Shown here: in pieces, positions 26,641-50,100 of the stretch
Layout of the letters: the number at the start of each line of letters is the position of its first letter
Position numbering within the stretch: position 1 is the first letter of the stretch
Source: Dictyophora rubrovolvata
Taxonomy: Eukaryota > Basidiomycota > Agaricomycetes > Phallales > Phallaceae
Assembly: GCA_029959195.1 (NCBI GenBank)
Contig: CP114122.1
Coordinates: forward strand, 620,001 to 684,000
Direction of reading: 5' to 3'
Length of the DNA stretch: 64,000 bases
Notes under the pieces: generated by a model
Told to the model about the DNA's origin: nothing
Database searches by the model: none
What the model saw: the letters and a program-made list of their open reading frames with translations, nothing else
Translations under genes and position numbers: made by a program

Positions 26641-29600
26641 TCAGGAGCCGTTTGTATGTCTAAAGAACACCGAAGTTTGAGATTCGAAGAAAAAAAAGGG
26701 AGCGTTGATAAGATAATGGAAAAACTCACTATACATAGTATTGAACTCGTTCATGAATCCCGTCGCTTGGGAACCTTGCATGACGGGTAATCCATAAAGG
26801 GAAGAAGTGATCAACGCTGGGTCCCCAAATCCTTCAGAAATATCCTTCCATACATCAGAAGCAACAGTGGCTGCAGCACCGCTACTACCATGCCCCGCCG
26901 GGCCGGTGGTACCCAAATTGATGTTCGCTTTAGAATCATATCCGTTGCTTGAATTGACACCGAAGGAAGGATAGGCATAATTATTATCCGACATCGTAGA
27001 GGGCGAATGATGGCTGGAACCATTCCCAGGGGCCGAAGAAGACGACGATGGCGGTGTTGGGGGATTAGGCCAATTATGATAAGTGTTTATCCCACTAGTG
27101 CTAGCTGTGGACACGGGACTCACGCCTCCTCCTCCTGCATTTGATGTCAAGGCTTGTGTGTACAGTGAGGACGGGCGTTGAGTCGGGGATGCGGATGAAT
27201 GCGAAGAAGACAGGCCGCTCAATTGAATAGTCCTTGGGGGTTGATACTGCGGAGGCGAGCGAGGCTTGCTCGTAATATCAATCCCAGCAGATGACGCTCC
27301 ACTAATGCTATTGGATCGGATACTATTAACACCACTTCTTGATCGCGATTTACCGCCGTTCATTTGGGATTGCGCCGATGTATAATCGGTAAACTCAGAT
27401 TTAATTCCATCTTCCCGTTTTCTTTTATCTCGACTTTCTCCGGCTAGTATCCTTGACTGTTCAACTGCTCGAAGATCAATCTTTGAGCCATGTAATAATT
27501 CCCAGGCACGTCCGGCACTTGGCCACAAAATCTGTTTTATCAAAAAGGATAGTTAAGACATCAAAGTCTTTTTTTCCCATGTCACGGAAATAACGTACGC
27601 TCATTGTTTGTAGAGCATCCATGCAGAGCTGTAAGCCCATACCGGCCTGAACGTCTCCTGAACGAACAAACAAAGTCGTCATATGCATGATACCAGCACT
27701 GAAGACGTAGTATGTGAGGAACGCCGGCGCACGGCGCAGACAAAAGTTTTGCTTGTACATGCCAACTATATAAGACAATGAGTAAATAGTACCTTGGCAG
27801 CCCTTGTTGAACTCACCGATGCTGCTGATTTGAGTCGCAGCCGTGGCACATAATTCGAAAGCTCTAGTGCATTTAGCATGATCGGGAGTGTCACTCTCAA
27901 TCGGGCATTGGGCTGCTACATCTTGACCGGGTCTACACGGAATGATTTGGTAACTATCAGTTTGCTACCTTCTCGTCTTTTTTCTGCATTACTTACTGGA
28001 GTTTTCTTCTCATACTGTCAATCAGATTCACGAACGTCATTTAGCTGAGGGTAGAGTACATTTGTTGTTGAACGATACTCACAAGGGACGATGGGCCAGA
28101 AGAACTGAGCACCAATATTGCATATGTAGAGTGAGAACATGTGGAGGAGGGAGGGGACGGCAGCTTAGTTCAGCAGGAGTAGTAGAAGCCGGCAACTCGA
28201 GGTGCTTCGGAAGGTCCAGATACCATCTATCCAACCTTTTTTCGAAGATTGCTAATTCTGCTAGCCGAACATGGGGCTTTTGGGGCTGAACTGCGTAAAT
28301 TGTTTCGACGATGTTGGAAAGGATACCAGCTTCATAGACGTGCATGTTAGTATTCTTACAATTATATCAGAACGTGTAAGACGTACATAATCTTGAAGCA
28401 GCGTTGAAGCACGAGATGAGTCGGGCTGGAACTGGAACGTAAGACGAAGGAAGCTCAGTATCGGGTATAGCTTCTCCAGCGCAAGGCGAATTATGACGCA
28501 ACCACGGCTTTATCTCTTCAGCCTAGGAGAATGGTTTAATTATTCATCTGCCAAAAAAAAAAACGCACACATACATGATCTTCTTGAGGCAAATGGGTGT
28601 CAAAATCTCGCTCAAAAATGGCCAAAGGACGACCTAGAAAATAAGCCAGATAAAAAAACTCGGGACAATCTTCTTCAAAAGAGTTGTCTTACCAATATAT
28701 GTACTCAAATACTTATCCATAACTACACATGAGTACCAGATTCGCCTACGAACCTGCTTTTCAATTTCGGTAAACAATTCTGCTCCAGTGCGCTGCCATT
28801 TATCTGCGGCCCGGTGCATGCCTAAATCTTGTGCCTGTTCGTTATTAGATTTTGGTCAAAGTTGCGCGGTTTAACACGAATAAATACCATTCTGACGGCC
28901 ATGCCGACATACAACCATGCCTGCGCCATGGCGCCGATACCAATTTCGCGATAACTGAGCAACAAGAGAGCTTGACATGTAGTCGGACGGGAAAGAGCAT
29001 AAGTCGAATCTATCAAAGACGTTAAACATCGACTTTTTTAAGAATAGAATAGAGAATTTACTCAGGAGGTTCTTCGCGTCTTCAAGATATTCATCTCCCG
29101 CGTTCCACATATCTCCTTCATTGAGGGGTAAGGGGTCCTCCGGCTCGGTTTTATAACGAGCGGCAATAGCAAACATTGCTAATAGAAGAAGATTCGGTAC
29201 ATTATTGGTGTTTTTATTGACGTGAGGATTGGTTGGTTGTTTCGAATTATAGCCAGAGCTAGAGGAACCAGACTGAGACGAAGGCGCAGGCGAGGGTTTA
29301 TTATTTGTTTCCGGGTCAGATCTAAGTAAAACGTTGATAGTTGACTAAGATCGTAACCAAAAACATAGGAGTTAGTGGACTTACTCTCCTCTGTACTCTC
29401 TCCAGAATTCTTTCTCGATCAAGACGGGTAAAACAGGGTGGACATATGCGAAATACATTTCCAATAATTCCTCCTGTTCTTCTCTGCTTGGGAGCCTAAT
29501 GGATTTTTCGCTATCGCCCTGAATACTTCCCGGACCTAGAATATTTTCCACGTCCTCAACACCGACTCTAAGAACGCTTCTAGAAGCACGGGGCCAAACG

Positions 29601-30684
29601 CCGGCTCGCGGAAATCGCCAAAGGCCGCCCTCGTTGCGCTTGTCAAGACGATCGCTCATACCAAGAATATGTAATCCCGAGGCTTCGCCGTGATAACGCA
29701 CTTGGGACTCCTCGTTGAGTGATAATTGACCAATTGCGCTATGAAGATCGTCTTCTGATATCGAAGTGAGTGCATCAGACGGTGTCGGTGAGAGAGATGG
29801 AGTGCGAGCTTGAACTTGAACGAGAGCCGTACGTTGTGGAGAGCTGTTGGAGTTTATTCGCCGGCGCTGCGCTGGGGACTCACCGGAAGACGTGCGAGGA
29901 ATTCCGGAAGTATCGAGGAAGAGACGAGGAGGTCCGAATATACTTGAATTTGGCGCATATTCTGAGCTTTTGTCTGTTGATGAAGCCATTTCCCCTTTCT
30001 TGAGCCTTTCTCTGAGATGTTCTTGCCATTCGGCGCTGGGTGTTGAGTAAGGGAGAGGGTTTGAAATATTACCAGTTGTACGCAATATGCGGCTAGCACG
30101 GTCTTCTCCTTCTTTTCCTCTCGTACCAAAGGGGCTCTCATCGACACGGTCGAGGATTTCCCTGGCGAGTGGGTCGCCGGCCAAGTCTGAAATGATTGAC
30201 CTCACTCTCTTGTCTTCGGTGGTGAGTAGAGTGCCCATCAAGGCTTCCATTTGATGCAGACGGCTTTCTATTGCATCAATATACCCTTTGGGAGGCCCAC
30301 GCTTCCTGGAGGGTCCCAAGAATGTGCAGGGAGTTCCCAAGAGGATGCAATTTTTGCAAGGTTCATCGCGGGACTCGTGTCTTTCGCATTTACACTTGGA
30401 TTTACGGCATTGATCACAGGCTGAAAAGAGAGAAATATAAGCTTCAACTTGGCGCAATAGCTAGAATGTATTTCCATGGAAGACACACCTTTTGAGCTTC
30501 GTCTCCTTATCTGTCTTGCTTTCTTTGGGCCAGCCGAAAGACCCGGCGTGTCCGGGAAGTCGTCGTCGTAGTCATCACGGTCGATGACGGTGCTCCAGGA
30601 GGGGTTCTGCTGGTCGAGCAGCGGGAGTGGTGTCTGCGGGGGAGCCTGTATCGAGGACGGTATATTGACGAAGAGATGGTCCAT
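26641..30684 (-). CDS. Zn(II)2Cys6 fungal transcription factor, RKRGPPKGY subgroup
   Basis: ATG at 30684 begins MDHLFVNIPSSIQ. Exon 1 ends at 30489 and exon 2 starts at 30420, placing a basic stretch (KKARQIRRRSSK) against the binuclear cluster CDQCRKSKCKCE...CKNC...C, spacing Cx2Cx6Cx9Cx2Cx6C. The linker GPSRKRGPPKGYIDAIESRL, found in sugar and carbon regulators such as the XlnR group, precedes a dimerising helix. After a Ser/Pro-rich part comes the fungal-specific middle homology region (ALLLLSYREIGIGAMAQAWL, MHRAADKW, RRRIWYSCVVMDKYLS, GRPLAI, HVLTLHMQYWCSVLLAHRPL). The C-terminus is Ser/Gly/Asn-rich and probably the activation domain, with a last small exon ending RHTNGS. It acts in the nucleus. 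Whether it controls sugar use, including the transporter 6 kb away, is inference only. Confidence 0.88.
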
Positions 30685-34377: not shown

Positions 34378-34699
34378 ATGACCGCAGTTGCTAAGTGTTC
34401 GGATTCAAACCTGGTCTTTCGTGCCCGCCAGAATGATATTGGAAACCTCACCGTGGTCTCACCACTCCCTGCTACTAGGCCTTGTTCCGGAGTACAGTTA
34501 GATTTCGATCGTGGACCACCTGGCCTAATGTTAGCGTCCGACGGTTTTGGACTATGGACACATTGGGCACGTTCCTCAGTTATGGAAACTTAAGGGCTAA
34601 TTTTTTTTCTCCACAAGTTGAGCCTTGATTTGAGCCCTGAACAAGCACCTCTACTTACCCGTGTATGACATTTATGCGCAAAAGAACTTCTCAATCGTC

Positions 34700-35336
34700 A
34701 TGTCGCAAAAGTCTAAACAACGTGTGAGACGCGTGAGGCGCAGCTCAGGTAAATTAGGGCTAATTAAGTATCGATGAACCTTGTACTAGTAGCCATCTAA
34801 AAAACGTAAATTAGAGTAAATTAGCTTTCTTCGACACATTTGAGATCTTTAGAATTTTTAACTACAGCTAAGATATACTTTTTCTTTGGTATTCAAGACT
34901 TCAAGCTCACTACAAGCGAATGCATAATTTGTGAAATCATTATGTATACTTATTGAGAATATTAGTATATATGGCTAAAGTTATACTACAACATATTTTA
35001 CCTACACTAATAGTCTAATACTATTGTTCTATACTACTGCCCATAGTGCTTCACTATAACTAATATCTACGAGACTTAGCACTTGCTCACGCGTTGGACT
35101 TGGGACTCGGACAGAGCCTCGGGGGAGCAGAAAACCCTGACCAAGTCCTCACTTAAAATAAGAAATATGAATTGCGCACAATCTATGGTCTTTTCCCATC
35201 CATTCAGCGAGAAATATTGTTCAACAGAAAGTCATTGGACGATTATTATTTGGCAGTTAATTAATACAAATTCAGACCCCGCTTCAGAAAATTAGATATG
35301 TAAGATTAGCCCCTTTTAAATTCGATTTTGCGACAT
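34700..35336. mobile_element. MITE-like element with terminal inverted repeats
   Basis: The left end ATGTCGCAAAA (34700-34710) and right end TTTTGCGACAT (35326-35336) are exact inverted copies of 11 bases. Copy B of the host repeat has no such insert at the same point (near 42291), so it serves as an empty site. The outermost AT could be part of the inverted repeat or a 2-bp target duplication; the two cannot be told apart. The inside is AT-rich, with repeated TAAATTAG words near both ends (for example 34752-34820) and no coding frame. It is a non-autonomous DNA element; superfamily not assigned. Confidence 0.7.
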
Positions 35337-35371
35337 ACCAAAACCCACCCTCGAACTTTCTATCACAGATA

Positions 35372-35722
35372 ATGTGTCACCGCGTAATTTACGTTGATAG
35401 ATACGCTTGCGGCCACTACATACCCATTCGCTATAGCGAGGTAATAGACAACTTTCATGATTATTGTGATGGGTCTTCTCATACTATATTTACAGCGGGA
35501 TTGTGGCATGCCGACCTGTCGAATTTCAGCCGCACACCCCCCGGGTGAGTGCGGTCCCAGCTGCCGCTCAACTTGCACTTCAATGTATGTTTTTGCTCCT
35601 TGTTTTCAACTGCTTCGGATTTTGACATATAATTTACCAGTCGGGGTCCTTTCCAGGAGAGACCCAACTCGCCGAACGCCGGTCCTCTCTGCCCTACTTG
35701 CGTTAATCAAGTCACTGAATAG
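35372..35722 (+). CDS. Small cysteine-rich protein A, 79 residues
   Basis: Three exons: 35372-35440, 35496-35584, 35641-35722, with 55- and 56-base GT...AG introns at the same places as in copy B. The protein starts MCHRVIYVDRYACGHYIP and continues with DCGMPTCRISAAHPPGECG, then PSCRSTCTSIRGPFQE and GPLCPTCVNQVTE. Nine cysteines (2, 13, 26, 31, 42, 46, 50, 70, 73) and two histidines (15, 37) suggest a zinc-binding fold. There is no signal peptide or membrane segment, so it is probably cytosolic or nuclear. From memory, short proteins with an MC...CGH...C...C..S..H pattern recur in Agaricomycetes without known function; I could not check this. A MITE-like element ends 35 bases before the ATG, so expression may differ from copy B. 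Confidence 0.72.
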
Positions 35723-36879
35723 CAGTTGATTCTTCCATCGGAATCAGTCTGTAATCTGCAGTCCCTGATATGACTTTGTCTTTCTTTTCGCTTCCACTCC
35801 TCATTAGCCTTCGAGCATAGATTAATTCACTCATATCATATCTCGTGAATTAAGCCATGGTGCAATATAAAATACTGCTTAAATCTCCCTTTTCCCGATA
35901 ATTAGCAAAGCCTTTGTCGGCGCGCAAGCTGGAAGGCGGCTTGACTTATTTCAACGAGTGACCATCGTTGACTGTTAAGTGGCTGATCGTGTTTACCGCC
36001 ATGTCAGATAACAAAAGATCGACGGACTGTAGTCGATACTCAGGCGGAAGGTGTCTATGGATTCAGATCAATTTCTGTTACAAGTGAGTGAGGCGACATC
36101 GGCTTGCGGCGGTTACGCCATCGGCATATTCCATACGATAAAGATCTAGCCACAATGAACGTAGGCAACCGTTTACTCCACGAGTTCTCCAGAGTCCTTC
36201 AACCTTTTCCTTCAAACGAACGACCTCTCCTCAGAGCAAAGGCTTCTTATCTTTGTCTCCGAGAAAGGAGTATAAGCAGTTTTAAACACACGAACTTACG
36301 ACCATTCACTGAATGCGGCGCCCATCGGGACTCGGACACTTAGGACACCGAAACCCGCGCAAAAAAAGTGGTATTTATCGTCCATTTCCATAAGTTCGTA
36401 GGCACTTCTGAGCCTGGGTTATCTTGCACGCGTTGTTTGACGTAGGGGTATTTGAGCTGTCGTAGCAACCATTTGTGCGAGTGTTGGGAGAATGGGTAAC
36501 TCGGCAATTTGAATTTCGGATGCCGTCAAATGTGACAAAAGATTTGATTCCGCGATTGTCGATAGCGGCCATGGTCCATATATCTTGTCGGTGAAAATAA
36601 AGTAACTATTATTCTACAGAAGTTAGAACTTGAGGACTACGGAGGAAGCAGACTCCGTGAATAGATTTCCGAAGTTGAGAAGACTCTCGAGGAGTGGCAT
36701 GACGTGACCACCATTACGTAAAGCAGTTCGTGCAACGTCAGAGGCGTTTCCGTCTTCAACTCCTCCGTTAATATTTGTCTTTCTTGCTTTAGAATTCTAA
36801 CTATTTGGAGATAATCTATTCATCTGGACAGCGTTTCGTCTGTCCATAATACCCACCACAGGTTTTCTTGTTGAACCAG
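35723..36879. other. Intergenic region before the transporter
   Basis: About 1.15 kb. The start of the transporter might include an earlier non-coding exon ending CCACCACAG at 36861. No further gene or repeat is recognised. Confidence 0.4.
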
Positions 36880-39821
36880 ATGACTGGCTTTTCAGCCTTA
36901 TCTAATAGAGAGGTCCATGAAGAAAACGACGATGGACAGTGGCAAGAAAGTGCTAAAGTATCTGGTCCAAAGTTTTTGAAAATGCCATTGTTAACAGTTG
37001 GAATGTTCGGTCTGCAAATTATATGGTCTGTGGAAATGAGTTATGGTGCGTGCTCATCATAGTTCATCCGCTTTCTTGTCAGCCTTATTATTTCGTTAGC
37101 CTCGCCGTATCTGGTATCACTAGGACTATCGAGGAGTCTCATGTCCATAGTATTCCTTGCTGGACCAGTGTCAGGATTAATTGTACAGCCATTAATAGGT
37201 GCGCTTTTTTTCCTAAGTGAAATATGGTGTCGTCACCTCCGGGTCAATCATTGCACAGGTGTTTTTTCTGATCATTCATATTCTCGTTTTGGACGTCGAC
37301 GGCCCTATATATTCCTGGGAGTCTTAGTTGCATTTTTTGCCATGTATCTCTTCGGCTTTACTCGCAACTTCGCCGATATTTTTACGCGTTCTGGTACCAC
37401 ACTGGCAAGTATAAAACCTCTCTTTCAAAGCGATAAACGCCAACCTTCAAAATTGAAATAGAATAATACCTTAACAATTGCCTTGGCTGTCTTTTCGATA
37501 TATCTAATCGATTTCTCCATTAATGCAAGTAAGCGTAAATATTCGGAATCTCAGCACCATGGCCGAAATTGAGCTTCATATTATTAGTCCAAGCCATGGA
37601 TCGTGCACTGTTGGTAGACCTGCTGTCTGCTTCCGAACAAGAAGAAGGCAATGCTTGGGCCGGTAGGATGTTTGGACTCGGGAGCGTTATTGGTTTTTTC
37701 GTGTATAGCAACTTTCTTCCATCCCGCACAGCGTTTGATTCTGTTTAGAGGAAATGTGGATCTAACCGTGTCACTGCCCTTCTTTGGATCAACACAGCTT
37801 GAAGTCCTTTGTGTTATAACATCTGCCTTGCTTTTAGCCGCCCATTGTATCACAGTATTTAACGTCTCAGAACGAGTCTTGCACTCATCAAACGCCGGGT
37901 ATAGTTCAGGTTTATGTCTTTTTTTCTGTCGACTAACTCACCGTAGATCCAAGTTAAAATCGAACATTTTTGAAATTATAAAAGACATTTGGCGTAATTT
38001 TCTATGGTTACCGAATTCTATTAAACAAATTGTAGGCATCGCTGTTCCAAATGCCAAGTAACTTCTCAAAAAATTTCTAGTGCCTTATCCAATTATTGTG
38101 GGCCATTCATATTCTTTGATCAATCGATCCTCACTCAAACCACAAAGCGCTTGGATAGGGTGGTTCCCCGTATTGTTTTGGTCTAGTTTATACGTTGGGG
38201 GATTATATAAACAGTGAGGAATATACACCGGTTGCCTAGAAGGGAAGGGTCGCCTGATTTCGGTTAATTCTCTTTTTAGAAATTCACCTATTCCATCGAC
38301 TAAGGCTGAGGAACAGATGCTGGAGGACGAAGCCACGAGGCTTGGATCTCGCGCATTATTATACAACGCTATTGTCAGCCTCATCGCAAGTATCGTTTGT
38401 CCTTTCTTTGTCTCCGGAGTGCGACGCGCTCACGGTGAATACGGCAATGTCACCAATGTGAAAGTTGGTTGGAGGGCCGCCTTGTGTAGAGTATGGGACA
38501 ATCGGCCCACATGTCATCTTGCATTACTTTGGAGCGCTTCTCACGGGATTTTCGCCGCGTGCATGCTTAGTACCTTGTGAGCTCTTCTTTCAAATATCCT
38601 GTGAACGTTCGTCATCATCATTTTTGATTAGTTTTATCAAAACGGTACGAACTGCGTTGCTTGTTTTAACTATATCTGGATTCAGCTGGGCAATCACTCA
38701 ATGGGCGCCCTTTGCCTTGGTGAGTCAGTGTTAATATTCGTTTGTTACCTCCCATTCATTTCACACAACAACTTGTTTGGCGTGCGTATATAGATTGCTG
38801 AGGCTATACATTTAAGTGAATCACCTCGGTTTCTGATAGGGGAAGAAGATGATTTTAGTGACGTCGGCGATACTATTCCTCTTCGAGATTCCAGAACACG
38901 TCGAGAAAGCTTCGAGGAAATTAGACGTGACAGTTTGGAGATGAATGGCCACGAAGTTAGGCGTGATAGTTTGGAAGTAAAATCCGAGAACGCTCGACTT
39001 ATTAATGGAGAAGCCCCAGGCGGGAAACGAGTACGATTCGCAGACGAGACGCCCGGACTAGAAAATTCCCTTTCACGAATGAGTAAAGATTCTGATGAGA
39101 CGCCATCTGCTACAACGTCGATGTTGGGTATGAATGCTACAGCGCAGCGAAGTGTTGAAAACGTGGGATATACTCACGAGGAAGATAGCCCATGCGATAG
39201 AAGGAGAACATTAGAAGACAAGGCTGGAATTATTTTGGTGAGTTAATTCCATTTCCAGGATATAAATTACTTCCTTTTCCCGTCTTTATTGGCTTCTCAT
39301 TTGCACTATTTTGAGAAATCGGAAAAGGGAACCGCCAATCAGACTTTTTATCCCTATTTTTTTTTTATATCTTGCGTATAAAATGCTAATGCACTTCTCT
39401 TCTGTGACTTCGTAATAGGGTATCCATAATGTTTTTGTTGTAATACCTCAGTTCATCATCACGGGTTTATCGTCCATTATATTTGCGATTTTGGATCCTG
39501 AAAAGTCTGTGTTGGATTCTCATGGTCGCCCGGCCCATCCAGGAGGACTGCCGTCGGTACCAATAAGTAATAGTACTGCCACAAATATTACTACGTTGGC
39601 AACGAATGTTCTTCTGCCTCGCGTCGGAGGGGAGGGTTCCATGAGGAATGCCGACTCAGTTGCAATAATTTTTCGGTGAGTATCAACTAGTAGCCTCAGG
39701 ACCCGATGTTCGGGATGATCTTACTTCTATCAACTAATTTTTTAGGCTGGGGGGTATGAGCGCAGGTATCGCCTGCATATTGGCCATCCGACTTTCTCGA
39801 GAATTGAAACGAGCCCGTTAA
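36880..39821 (+). CDS. MFS sucrose/alpha-glucoside-type transporter (SUT/SLC45-like)
   Basis: Resembles plant SUT and S. pombe Sut1, proton-coupled disaccharide carriers of the plasma membrane. The N-terminus is hydrophilic; TM1 region TVGMFGLQIIWSVEMSYASP, then SIVFLAGPVSGLIVQPLIG, the cytosolic signature SDHSYSRFGRRRPYIFLG, DFSINAIQAMDRALLVDLL, WAGRMFGLGSVIGFFVGN, LIQLFAWIGWFPVLFW, SWAITQWAPFAL and a final TM segment ending ILAIRLSRELKRAR. Early exons are 36880-37045, 37100-37198 and 37259 onward. A long loop (about 38820-39240) holds three RRxS motifs and a basic/acidic mix, typical of the fungal branch. Substrate is not certain. The gene converges with URC4 (148 bases between stops), and the pair lies between the two arms of the inverted duplication. 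Confidence 0.88.
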
Positions 39822-39969
39822 AGAGATTGTCGCCAAGGTATGGCAGCCTTTTAGTTTAGATGATTTGCATTCAAAGCTGTAGAATTTTTCTGCACTGGCA
39901 TACGGACCTTGTTGATCTATTAGTGTACATCTGTAATTATACCCTTTCAAGGATTTTAGTGTGCTCGCT

Positions 39970-41625
39970 TCAAAATACAGTGCCATCAGATTCAATGTCA
40001 ATTGGAGGACCACCAGTTGCTGGTCGTTTGGCTTTGGCGATTTCTCGGCCTCCTTTCCACGTAGCACTTTCCAGAATCTGAGGAAGAGTAAGATCATATG
40101 AATTAAGTTTCTTCCGGATTAAATTCGCAATGCGGTCTCTAATATAAAAAGTTGAATTACAGACGCTTGCTTCACTTAAATGACTGAAACAGGGTAACCT
40201 ACAGTTCTATAACAGTCATGGCTCGCCATTCAATGATCGCTGGATGGGAGGGTGGCAGTTTGAGAATTTGATCAGAGGGAAAGTTGCCAATGGAGCCAGA
40301 CCGCAGATTTAAGACACCGAAATCAACAAGAAGACCACCATTACGATATTCCGGAAGACCGGTCAAAAATTCCAGCCCGTCTATTTTCCACTTTAAAATT
40401 TTCTCAAGTGGTTCGATAAGGCTATAAGCCAGCCACTGAGATAATTTGTGGAATGGGACGAGAGAAGCCAGCTCTCTCTCTACGTCGTTCTGATTTTTGC
40501 CGGAAGGGTTATTCTTCAAGGTGCTGCAAGACCAAACATCTCCGAGTGAATTTCCCTCAATTTCCGTACGAGATCTAGGCCAGATAGGAGCTAGCCCTTC
40601 AATCAAAACGGTCCATAAGCTGGACACATCAACACGTGCTTTGAAGTCAGATGAGTCTAGAGGCAGTGATTGCAACTTGAGATAATCTATGAAAGTCAAT
40701 AGAGATAAAATCGTGAGATCTCGATTGAGTTTGACCAGGATAGATAACTCTAACCGACGAGATTCCCGGGACGTGCTTCCGGTCCGAAGAAGGCAGTATT
40801 TGTACGCAAAGCTTGTGATAGATTTGATATTAATGCCGCACGTCCGTCTATTCCCGCCATCGGATTCAATTCATTCACTTGCATTGCGACTGCGATATCT
40901 TCTCCAGACAATTTGCTCAAACCTACCGCTAAATTGGAGTAAATCCGAAGCAGGTCAGCAAACTTTTACGAGTTCTCGTATGATGAATACAATAGTCACC
41001 ATCAACCCGATATAGCTGACTTCTGTCCGACGAGAACATCCCATGTTTAAACATAGCCAAGCTAGCGATAGCCAAACCTTCAGATCGACTATAAATCCTA
41101 CCGCCTTCCTCACGGTAAATCCAAGAGTTGCCGGCCCCGGCGTCCAGCAGTACAGAGACGAGGAACAAGTCGACGAGCCGCTTACAGATCTCAAATTCTG
41201 GAATATCATTATGGGTCCATTCGTCCAGCAGCTCGCTAATCCTGGGCTTATCCACGTCAAAATGACGCCACCGACCATGAGGAGGTATCTGCTTTCAAGT
41301 AGAGCGCAAGGCTTCTAGCGAGTTCTTAACACGATGATCGGCAGTTCAGATGCGCACCGATTGATAATTAAAGCCGAAATCACGCTAAGGAACCTTGATG
41401 AAAAAAACAATACTCGACGTAATAGAGTCGATGCCTCACTTTGATTATACCTACGCAAAATTCCGCCACTTCGTCTTCCCTGTCCGGGATGTAATCAAAG
41501 TACTCGAGCTTGCCCTGTGTAGCAAGATCATACACTTTACTGCAACGCTCACGAATGGCCGGCAAAGTTTTCAGATACGCCGTTGCGCCCTGGGGAGTAG
41601 ACGTAAACGCAACAAGATGGTTCAT
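39970..41625 (-). CDS. URC4: DUF1688 protein, uracil catabolism URC4 homologue
   Basis: URC4 belongs to the fungal URC route of uracil degradation, a pathway also needing URC1 (GTP cyclohydrolase-like); its exact reaction is unresolved. The ATG at 41625 begins MNHLVAFTSTPQGATAYLKT, followed by LPAIRERCSKVYDLATQGKL, DYIPDREDEVAEFC, the block RISELLDEWTHND, DAGAGNSWIYREEGG and EGLAIASLAMFKHG, then IEGLAPIWPRSR, LVPFHKLSQWLAYSLIEPL, LTGLPEYRNGGLLVD and IEWRAMTVIELD. The last exon restores LTLPQILESATWKGGREIA and ends ESDGTVF at a stop at 39970-39972, the expected C-terminus. Exon edges between 40700 and 41380 are partly inferred. Confidence 0.92.
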
Positions 41626-41842
41626 GTTGAAGATGCAAAGATTAAATAGGATCGGCAGCGGAGAACGAAATGAACATGCATATATTAGTATGACACTAGT
41701 ATTATTTATAACAGCCACAAATTAGCCAGGAGAAGGTTCTCCGGCACAGAGAAAGAAAAAGAAAAAGAAGGTAAATACAAAGCAAAGAAAACAAGTGTCA
41801 TATCAGAAGCAAACTGGTCTGGGGCTCATAGCAGTATCTATT

Positions 41843-42250
41843 TTACGACTGGTGAAAAGTAAAACTACCCGGATTGTTATTTCCACGATTGCGCTGGGCA
41901 TTCGTGATTTGGTTTACGCAAGTAGGGCAGAGAGGACCGGCGTTCGGCGAGTTGGGTCTCTCCTGGAAAGGACCCCGACTGGTGAATTATATGTCAAAAT
42001 CTGAAGCAGTTGAAAACAAGGAGCAAAAACATACATCGAAGTGCAAGTTGAGCGGCAGTTGGGACCGCACTCACCCGGGGGGTGTGCGGCTGAAAGTCGG
42101 CAGTTCGCCATGCCACAATCCCGCTGTAAATACAGTATGAGAAGACCCACCACAATAATCATGAAAGCTGTCTATTACCTCGCAGTAACGTCCAATGGGG
42201 AGACTGTGGCCGCAAGAGTAATAATCAACGTAAATTACGCGGTGACACAT
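41843..42250 (-). CDS. Small cysteine-rich protein B, 98 residues
   Basis: Three exons: 42250-42179, 42123-42035, 41978-41843. Starts MCHRVIYVDYYSCGHSLP, continues YCERDCGMANCRLSAAHPP, GECGPNCRSTCTSI, RGPFQERPNSPNAGPLCPTC and ends VNQITNAQRNRGNNN...FTFHQS. Ten cysteines: all nine of copy A plus one at residue 23. Intron positions and lengths (55 and 56 bases) equal those of copy A, so the two are duplicates that both keep open frames and splice sites. The tail is 19 residues longer because the stop found in copy A is read as sense here. No signal peptide. The promoter lacks the inserted element seen in copy A. Confidence 0.72.
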
Positions 42251-42603
42251 TATTTCTGATAGAAAGTTTGAGGGTAGGTTGGAAAATAAGGATGACGATT
42301 GAGAAGTTCTTTTGCGTATAGAATGTTATACGCGGGTAAGATGAGAAGTAGAGATGCTTGTTCAATGCTCAAATCAAGGCTGACTTCACTTGTTGAGAAA
42401 AAAATGGCCCTTTTAAAGTTTCCATAGCTGAGCAACGTGTCCATAGTCCATGGACCAAAACCGTCGGACGCTAATAGGCCAGGTGGTCCACGATCGAAAT
42501 CTAAGTGCACTCCGGAACAAGGATAGCAGGGAGTGGTGAAGTTTCCAATATCATTCTGGCGGGCACGAAAGACCAGGTCCGAACACTTAGCAATGATCAG
42601 CAT
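41900..42603 (-). repeat. Inverted duplication, copy B
   Basis: Reverse-complement partner of 34378-35722. It covers the cysteine-rich gene and about 350 bases upstream, and lacks the 637-base element. The two arms are about 6.2 kb apart and enclose the transporter and URC4. Confidence 0.85.
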
Positions 42604-46624: not shown

Positions 46625-47198
46625 CGGACGAAACTGGCAAGTACTTGACAATGGCGGCGCCGTATATATATACTCGGTCGCTTAGACCTGGACCCAGAAA
46701 ATTCAGATAACGGTGAGCGCTAGAAGCCGAAGATCTGGGTACGTACGTGGTAGAGAGCTTCAGCCTGAGAGACAGACTCAAAGAGCTGAAGCTGGAGCTG
46801 GAGAAACATTACAAACAAACAAAAAAGAAACATCTTCATTTCAGTTGACAGCACGACCGACGATACCAGCAGAAAAGGCCGAATAAGACTGTTTCACTTG
46901 CGCGTTTTGACCCGTACTACCTAGTGTGATAATCATAGGCTTGATGAACGAGATTGAGAATGGCTATGTGAAATTGGCACGGAAAGCACTTGAACCATGC
47001 ATAGATGGAAATTTAGCATGGGGAAGTATTTTTTATAAGACATGGAGTTTCCGAACGAACGCCGTGCAGAGATCCGAGACAGAGATCACAGGAAAAAATA
47101 GAAAGCATATTGTGGTCACACGTCAGTGTCACCGCGTCACATTCTACATTCTTCATGCACAGCTAATTTGTCAACGCATCTCATCCTTGCGATATAGC
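46625..47198. promoter_or_regulatory. Divergent upstream region, F-box gene (-) / recyclin-1 (+)
   Basis: The 574 bases between two start codons. TATATATATA at about 46664-46674 lies 40-50 bases before the F-box start. The recyclin frame stays open upstream to about 46926 without motif content, so a longer N-terminus cannot be ruled out. Confidence 0.45.
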
Positions 47199-50100
47199 AT
47201 GGATAAATGGACAATCCTGGAGCCAGTCAGACTGTACGCTTCGACAGCCACAGGATTTCGTGCGCGTGCATCAGCCAAACCGGACCTGACATCCTACATC
47301 GGCCGTCTTCCTAGGGATATCCATCTGCTCATTTTTACCTATTTACCCCTTCACGAAATACCAGCCTACGCTCTTGGGAATCGAGCGCTTTCTAAATTGA
47401 TTCTGGACGAAAAACTGTGGGAAACTCGATGGAACGATATTTTTGCTGGTCGCGAAGAACTGACGGAGGCTCTGGATGAGCTGGAGACATGGGTCAGCGA
47501 GAAAGCGGCCTCTGCGCGTGCTACGGCTCCTCCAACATTGAACCTGGACGGTGATGACGAATTTGGCGATTTTGCTTCAGTTCCCGTGGTCTCGTCACAA
47601 TTTGAAGAAATGGGAGATTTCGTTGGCAGCTTCGATAATGCCTTCACACTCCCAGCCACCTCTGCAACCACCGCGCCACCTCAAACTGTATTTCGTCAGC
47701 GATATAAGAGAATGCACGCCCTTCTAAAGACTTTACTTCCAAGTTTGAACTTCGCTCCGCATCTCGTCCTCTCCAATATGTTTCCCTCCGTGGCTTCTCT
47801 ACGGCTTCAATCTCAGATTCTCCATATACTATTATTATATATCTCTCCTATTGTCAAACCATATCGAAATTGGTCAAATATACGCAACTCCCTCAAAACT
47901 GTCATTGATCGGTTTGAAGCCGGTCTTCTCACGGCTTTTGAGGCTGGGGACGCTTCCAAAGATGAGATGCGGATGAAAGAGGCAGCTTGGTCGAGTTGGG
48001 AAGTCTGGGGAGATGTTCGAGATGGAAAAAACGAATGGGAAATTGGTCGTGTCTGGATTGAGAAGCAAGAGGTATTTTATGAAACCGGCAGATGGGACCC
48101 TTTGAAAAATTTCACGTAGGTGATATTTTACATCCCTCCAAAAAGCTAGGACTAAATTATTCTCAGTAAGGAAAACGCCCTCAATTTCGAGGCCATGGAT
48201 GGATTTGTAAACCGTCTAATTCAAGTTATTAAGGACCAGAGCTCCATAATTATACGGGTCTTCCCATCAATAGCTTATGTCTCACTGCTATTTGCCGAAA
48301 AATTAGCGACGGAGGTGGTATGTTAGGTTTTTATTAACACTCCTTTTTTGTACTTAAAAAGGTTTTAGATTGCCGAATATATATCAGCTTTATTAGCACA
48401 AGCACGGCAAATATCAAATGAAGTATTTTTGAAAGCAACAGCGGCGAGCTTCTCCCAATCCTTGAAAGCGATTAGTACTTTCGCAACGAGTGTTGGTGAA
48501 TCCGTGTCACGTGTTGAAATTGAGGATGTAATGTAAATTTTTTTACTTACTTAACTTGCAGATTCGTAATTGCCAACAGATACCGAATGTTTGAGGAGCA
48601 TATGGATGATTATTTAGACGAAGAAATTGAATGTTTAAAAGCCCAGCTAGATGTGATTTGCAAAAACTGGCACCGCAAGGTCGGATTTTTTCCTCCCGGA
48701 CACAAATTTATTGATTTGGGGCTTATCTGATACTTTTAGCTTTCAAATCAGACAGAAGCTCGCCTTGCTGACGATACCGCACGATTTCTGGGCTCACAAA
48801 ATCCTGCCTTATTAAAGCGCAATGTTTTAGCTTCCTTCACCAACGTTTTACTCCTCCCAGTCACGATTGTTCCTCGAACTGTTGGTGCTCTGGTGACAAC
48901 AGGTTCTAGTGCTGCCGCTAACGGTATTGCCATGCTAAATCCTCAGCGCTGGGGTGCGCAGGCCGCGAATGGGTATTCAACAAGGCTAGATTCCCAGAAC
49001 AACGATTTTTATCTGGATGATCATGATCAAGATGACGACGTCACAAAGAGAGTCAGGCCTGGTACGTAAAATATTTAGGCGGTCGGAAAATCATTATCAA
49101 TTGCTCGTGCAGCCTCTGTTGCTGAATCTGTCACTTCAACCACTATGACTAGCACTTCGGTCGATGGAGCTTCAATTGTCACCTTTGACAGCCTTGAACT
49201 GCTCCTCTCGCTCGATATAGTTCTTGAGTTAATTCAAGTAGAACGCGAGGCACTGAAGCGAGTCGAGACCTTTCAGCATTATCCAGGACACTACGGTCAG
49301 AAAGTTACGGAGTCTATTGAAGAACTTTTTATATTCTTGTTGCAAGCACTTGGCGAACGTCATATATCCCCCGGGTTCGCGAGGTATGATCGTCCTCTAT
49401 CTTGTTGAAGAAGAATACTTGTTGACAGCGATGCGATAGAGCTACAGAGCAGATGCGTACTTATCAACCCGCTGAACACGAAGGAAACACCAGTGTAACT
49501 CCTTTGTTGCAATTCTTCGAGTTGGTACATATCGGTGATACCATCCAATCCATGATCCAAGTTTATTTTGATAAAGAAATGGTAAATTTAGAGTGGCACC
49601 GTTGACTGATTGTTTGTTGACGAGCTTTCGTTCCCTAGGCTCCGCATATCGATCGCACTGACTTCCTAAATAATGTTGTTCGGGAAAAGAAGCGCTTCGA
49701 AAATGCTTTAGATGACGCCGTGGCAGCAGGTTTGAATGCTGGAACCGAGGTTTTAATGAATCAAGTGATTATTAGCATTCTTATACCCTGGAGGATATTT
49801 CTGACAGCTGCTCTTAGGTTGAGCATATCGTGCAAACTCGGACGGGTCCTCGCGAATATTATCCCCAAGAAGGTACGATTCTCGACTTACGGCCTACCCA
49901 AGGCTGCCAGGAAGCGATTGCTTGTCTTGAGAAGCATTGTAAATTAATGCGAGGAAGTACAAGCAAGGATGTTTTGGAGGTATTTTATTACGAAGTTGGA
50001 ATACGATTACACGCGTTAGTACATGATTTCACGTTTTCTTTCAGTGCTTTTCTTACGCCCCTCCCTAGGATAATACAAAAGCATATCAAACGACAAATCA

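Follow-up and report, generated by a model that had tools for sequence, protein, structure and literature searches.

An inverted pair of small cysteine-rich genes flanking a transporter gene and URC4 in a fungal genome

Passages of a Caenorhabditis study (PMC1803023) describe long inverted repeats that hold convergent or divergent pairs of paralogous genes and speak of an active mechanism maintaining them. The locus analysed here lies in a window of 64 kb (the whole stretch of DNA that was analysed), within a genome of 28.2 Mb on 11 contigs. The window is called fungal on account of a URC4 gene, a Zn(2)-Cys(6) cluster protein and short introns. As those passages present the Caenorhabditis pairs (PMC1803023), the locus resembles them in that its inverted arms hold homologous genes on opposite strands and in the patchy identity along the genes, and disruption of one inverted structure by an insert is reported there too. 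However, the Caenorhabditis arms are nearly perfect in the same part of that account, whereas the arms here are 81–91% identical and fall short of near-perfect identity. In further contrast to the pairs described there, the arms are spaced approximately 6.2 kb apart, two unrelated genes (a transporter gene and URC4) lie between them, and the arrangement is known from one genome.

The initial annotation had described two arms of approximately 0.7 kb in opposite orientation (Table 1). The inverted arrangement was borne out by BLASTN of the two flanks. In the gene-body part, 348 of 382 columns were identical (91%, E = 3e-154; 35342-35720 on the A side), which rules out chance similarity, and in the distal upstream part 266 of 330 columns were identical (81%; 34388-34701 on the A side). 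When the 64-kb window was compared with itself under a dust filter, these two matches were the sole repeat pairs listed at E 1e-6. The proposed size holds for arm B but not for arm A, which measures 1.33 kb because an interspersed element lies inside it. Similarly, the upstream sequence described as the same in both copies is indeed shared, but in A it is interrupted 35 bases before the ATG.

Table 1. Positions of the arms, genes and insert in the window.
Feature	Position	Strand	Description
Arm A	34388-35720	+	Includes inserted element 34700-35336; BLASTN against reverse complement of arm B
Transposon-like insert	34700-35336	.	~637 bases; within arm A; absent from B
Gene A	35372-35722	+	Exons 35372-35440, 35496-35584, 35641-35722; 79 aa, 9 Cys
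Transporter gene	36880-39821	+	14 exons, 13 introns, 690 aa; intact by hand-made model
URC4-type gene (DUF1688)	39970-41625	-	5 exons, 442 aa; intact by hand-made model
Gene B	41843-42250	-	Exons 42250-42179, 42123-42035, 41978-41843; 98 aa, 10 Cys
Arm B	42593-41900	-	Uninterrupted, ~0.7 kb; BLASTN

The edges of the homology between the arms are sharp in BLASTN. Without gaps, the shared sequence runs to base 35715, four bases short of the A stop codon (35720-35722), and a one-base gap lets the BLAST alignment extend to 35720. Clear homology stops at this stop codon, and the C-terminal tails of A and B differ. For the 3' flanks beyond the arms, 2 of 500 shuffles reached the observed likeness with one scoring scheme and 71 of 500 with another; for the 5' outer flanks, the two schemes gave 6 and 33 of 500. 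The sequences past the 3' end of the homology do not appear convincingly alike, so that the C-terminal tail of B, at its 3' end, would be without a counterpart in A.

Genes A and B share a single three-exon model with conserved GT-AG intron sites and are convergent, facing each other across the transporter gene and URC4. The end of A is separated by 1157 bases from the start of the transporter gene, which is on the same strand, and the end of B by 217 bases from the start of URC4, with which B shares its strand. Neither copy has a stop in the proposed frame of the spliced alignment, and the two differ there at nine amino acids, versus 13 and 14 differences, with stops in both copies, in the other two frames. 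Within exon 2, the cysteine-carrying frame again has the fewest differences (4 versus 5 and 6). An unspliced reading was rejected, since in both copies the frame of exon 1 runs into an in-frame stop inside exon 2. This stop, together with the low number of differences in the proposed spliced frame, makes splicing at the predicted introns likely, as judged from the conserved GT-AG sites and the frame. The gene models first proposed for the two small cysteine-rich proteins were upheld, their splicing being deduced from sequence.

A similar CGH / DC / CPxC spacing is probably common among the short proteins of basidiomycetes with annotated genomes. Protein queries with A or B against their own genome retrieved only the exons of A and B (six matches each, E up to 10); this search took short queries one exon at a time and scored just the best candidates, and may therefore have overlooked diverged paralogues. 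Neither protein retrieved a Pfam or NCBIfam family up to E = 10, and no PHROGs family was retrieved for the 98-residue protein. The PDB search with the latter gave no credible chain, its five matches all being antibody chains (best E 0.17). Neither protein matched a curated profile of a known zinc-binding domain family (RING, LIM or treble-clef type). No relatives in viral and prokaryotic contigs were confirmed by tblastn (6 pattern stretches in one scan and 35 in another), and in the literature searches made we recognised no paper on this protein family. A and B are alike to the small cysteine-rich fungal proteins in size and cysteine content, but appear to be set apart from them by having neither an N-terminal hydrophobic stretch nor a Pfam or NCBIfam family. 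Read by eye, their N-termini carry basic or acidic residues at positions 3, 4 and 9 (also 10 in A) and no long hydrophobic run, and for this reason a secreted product is not suggested.

The insert in arm A is bounded by an exact inverted repeat (34700-34710 and 35326-35336, 11 of 11 bases). It belongs to a dispersed family, of which 18 matching pieces, itself included, were retrieved with the window copy as query, and 21 matches in approximately 17 places, with neighbours merged by eye, when a longer relative was used. Five full-length copies of 745–965 bases were found. Inverted ends of 31–34 bases, 88–91% identical, were present in five of the six other family loci compared. In copies L021, L022, L023, L024 and L004 the ends are inverted TGTCGCAAAA, one L023 end differing by one base; L004 additionally contains tandem repeats of approximately 21 bases. 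The longest stop-to-stop stretch is 83 aa in the two family copies checked, neither of which has a long open frame. Flanking dinucleotides, read by eye, match at three of six family sites. The copy in the window has diverged from the rest of the family, being 70–77% like them in its six longest matches.

We take this family to be a non-autonomous, MITE-like TIR DNA element. It is alike to such elements in its inverted ends, its dispersed copies and, in the two copies checked, the lack of a long open frame. Matching flanking dinucleotides at half of the sites, the window site not among them, may or may not reflect a target-site duplication, and the window copy has the divergence given above. 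The presence of the insert in A is best explained as a later arrival after the duplication, the alternative being loss from B. Later insertion is favoured because arm B runs uninterrupted through the point that matches the insert. Given its distance from the start codon, the insert may affect the expression of A, and it constitutes a natural test of promoter disruption.

Divergence between the two copies is uneven. Mismatches per aligned base amounted to 27/287 upstream, where nine indels also occur; the leader had 7/35 and one indel, and exon 1 had 12/69 and one 3-base, one-codon indel. For intron 1, exon 2, intron 2 and the part of exon 3 that is shared, the values were 3/55, 6/89, 2/56 and 3/74, respectively. 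Together, the introns differ at 5 of 111 positions and contain no indel. Twelve of the 26 gene-body differences fall within 40 bases of exon 1 (scan P = 0.0003, with the window width picked post hoc). The differences between A and B are found mainly near the CGH motif in exon 1 and, beyond the last CPTC, in the tail, and all 12 cysteines and histidines in the compared part of A are also present in B. Indels occur less often in coding than in upstream sequence (P = 0.01); this scarcity is not specific to coding sequence, since the introns likewise have none (P = 0.04).

Selection on both copies had been suggested in the initial annotation. Over 76 codons, the comparison of A with B gave dN 0.071 and dS 0.172 by NG86 (ratio ~0.4), 0.077 and 0.151 by LWL85, and 0.072 and 0.159 by maximum likelihood, so that the point estimates of dN/dS span approximately 0.4–0.5. 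All are below 1, but the codon bootstrap of the NG86 ratio ranges from 0.16 to 1.07, with 3.6% of 500 values at or above 1. In a neutral simulation scattering the 20 base differences, 13.7–14.4 changed residues were expected versus nine observed (P = 0.005–0.015). A stricter control, in which clustering within codons was kept (three codons hold two or three differences each), lowered the expectation to 11.7–12.2 (P = 0.04–0.09); the simulations begin from one copy and ignore shared ancestry. All cysteines and histidines were kept by chance in 3.5–6.6% of the base-by-base runs and in 6–10% of those in the stricter control. Exon 1 alone has five changed residues versus 8.2 expected in the neutral simulation, and the rest of the coding sequence four versus 5.7. 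Exon 1 changes fast at the base level with no excess of amino-acid changes, and for this reason positive selection is not indicated. Purifying selection is suggested, weakly, and at least one copy probably has a constrained Cys/His scaffold. The claim stands to this extent and not for both copies, for which two sequences cannot speak.

We consider it likely that the locus arose by local inverted duplication, followed by a TIR-type insertion in A, and that the product is small and possibly metal-binding. Duplication with inversion, one of two origins put forward in the initial annotation, is supported by a single shared segment on opposite strands with the same introns. The layout is a local duplication, ordinary in kind. 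In this scenario, one small gene and approximately 0.3 kb of its upstream sequence would have been copied locally in inverted orientation, and the non-autonomous element would then have jumped into the upstream part of A, an order that we infer. The Cys/His set would have been kept while the exon 1 stretch near CGH and the tail diverged. This set resembles a zinc-binding scaffold with variable loops, and, judging by the residue pattern alone, the product would most likely be a small intracellular protein folded round metal ions. The inverted layout itself is probably a functionless by-product of the duplication. If the family binds metal and diversifies only between fixed ligands, it would offer a small, clean case of scaffold retention with change in loop and tail.

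The other proposed origin, in which both arms would be copies of a segment that was mobile or captured, such as a transposon-carried gene, is highly improbable and was rejected. The sharp homology edges would suit it, and a genuine transposon-like element does lie within arm A, but this element is missing from arm B. A DNA query with the gene segment found no third copy in its own genome, the two matches being the two arms, and neither terminal inverted repeats nor a target-site duplication were seen by eye at the arm edges. A less doubtful, although still tentative, possibility is that one copy is a decaying pseudogene, more plausibly A, whose upstream sequence is split so close to its start codon. 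The position of the insert favours this reading, as does the borderline deficit of amino-acid changes in the stricter control. Open frames survived by chance in 42–56% of the neutral simulations, which makes them weak evidence of function. Set against it are the dN/dS point estimates and the fact that no cysteine or histidine of the compared part of A has been lost in B.

Gene conversion between the inverted copies, keeping the arms alike while exon 1 and the promoter escape, is an unlikely explanation, less so than mobile capture. Only 5 of 130 bases differ in intron 2 and the shared part of exon 3, compared with the 12 of 69 in exon 1, and exon 1 differs from the introns (Fisher P = 0.007, a comparison picked after seeing the data). 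A precedent exists in the patchy identity along paired inverted genes reported in the Caenorhabditis passages (PMC1803023), conversion being our interpretation of the active maintaining mechanism mentioned there. Nevertheless, the longest identical run of 68 bases is not exceptional by permutation (P = 0.07 over the whole gene body and 0.24 without exon 1), the arms are merely 81–91% alike and the difference between upstream sequence and introns is not significant (P = 0.15). Since the introns are no more different than the exons and are free of indels, gene conversion or chance may be behind part of the likeness. A more speculative proposal, which we regard as quite improbable, is that A and B define a family, not described before, of very small metal-binding proteins that are intracellular and have a fixed Cys/His scaffold. 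The loop from CGH to the next cysteine and the tail would diversify fast after duplication, and the inverted layout would let conversion homogenise the conserved part.

In the fission yeast urg1 system, URC1 and URC4 are presented as conserved genes of uracil catabolism, and the locus is placed in a conserved group of genes that also includes a transporter and a zinc-finger factor (PMC3869809). The URC4-type gene between the arms matched the DUF1688 profile with 508.1 bits (cut-off 25) over positions 1–420 of 420 when the hand-spliced protein was used. All five DUF1688 matches in the genome fall in this one gene, which is the sole URC4 locus found; two of the five hold stops, located in introns 1 and 3 of the model. 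The sole match found to GTP_CH_N (URC1-type) is on contig 4 (2406686-2407255, L062), not on the contig of URC4. The URC1-type gene and URC4 are therefore unlinked in this genome, and a URC gene cluster was ruled out. The transporter matched Pfam MFS_2 with 28.8 bits (cut-off 27), BT1 remaining under its cut-off. Its third intron (37405-37461) fits GC-AG (donor GCAAGT) with the frame kept.

Outside the arms, a Zn(2)-Cys(6) cluster domain (PF00172, 29.3 bits, cut-off 21) was detected at 29381-30460 on the minus strand, approximately 4 kb from arm A. Its gene may regulate URC4, as a zinc-finger gene may in the conserved group of other fungi. On the other side, an open frame at 46911-48119 (+) contains two marginal matches in succession, first an F-box-like one slightly below its cut-off (23.4 bits versus 24.3) and then a Sec10_HB one slightly above its own (26.7 bits versus 26).
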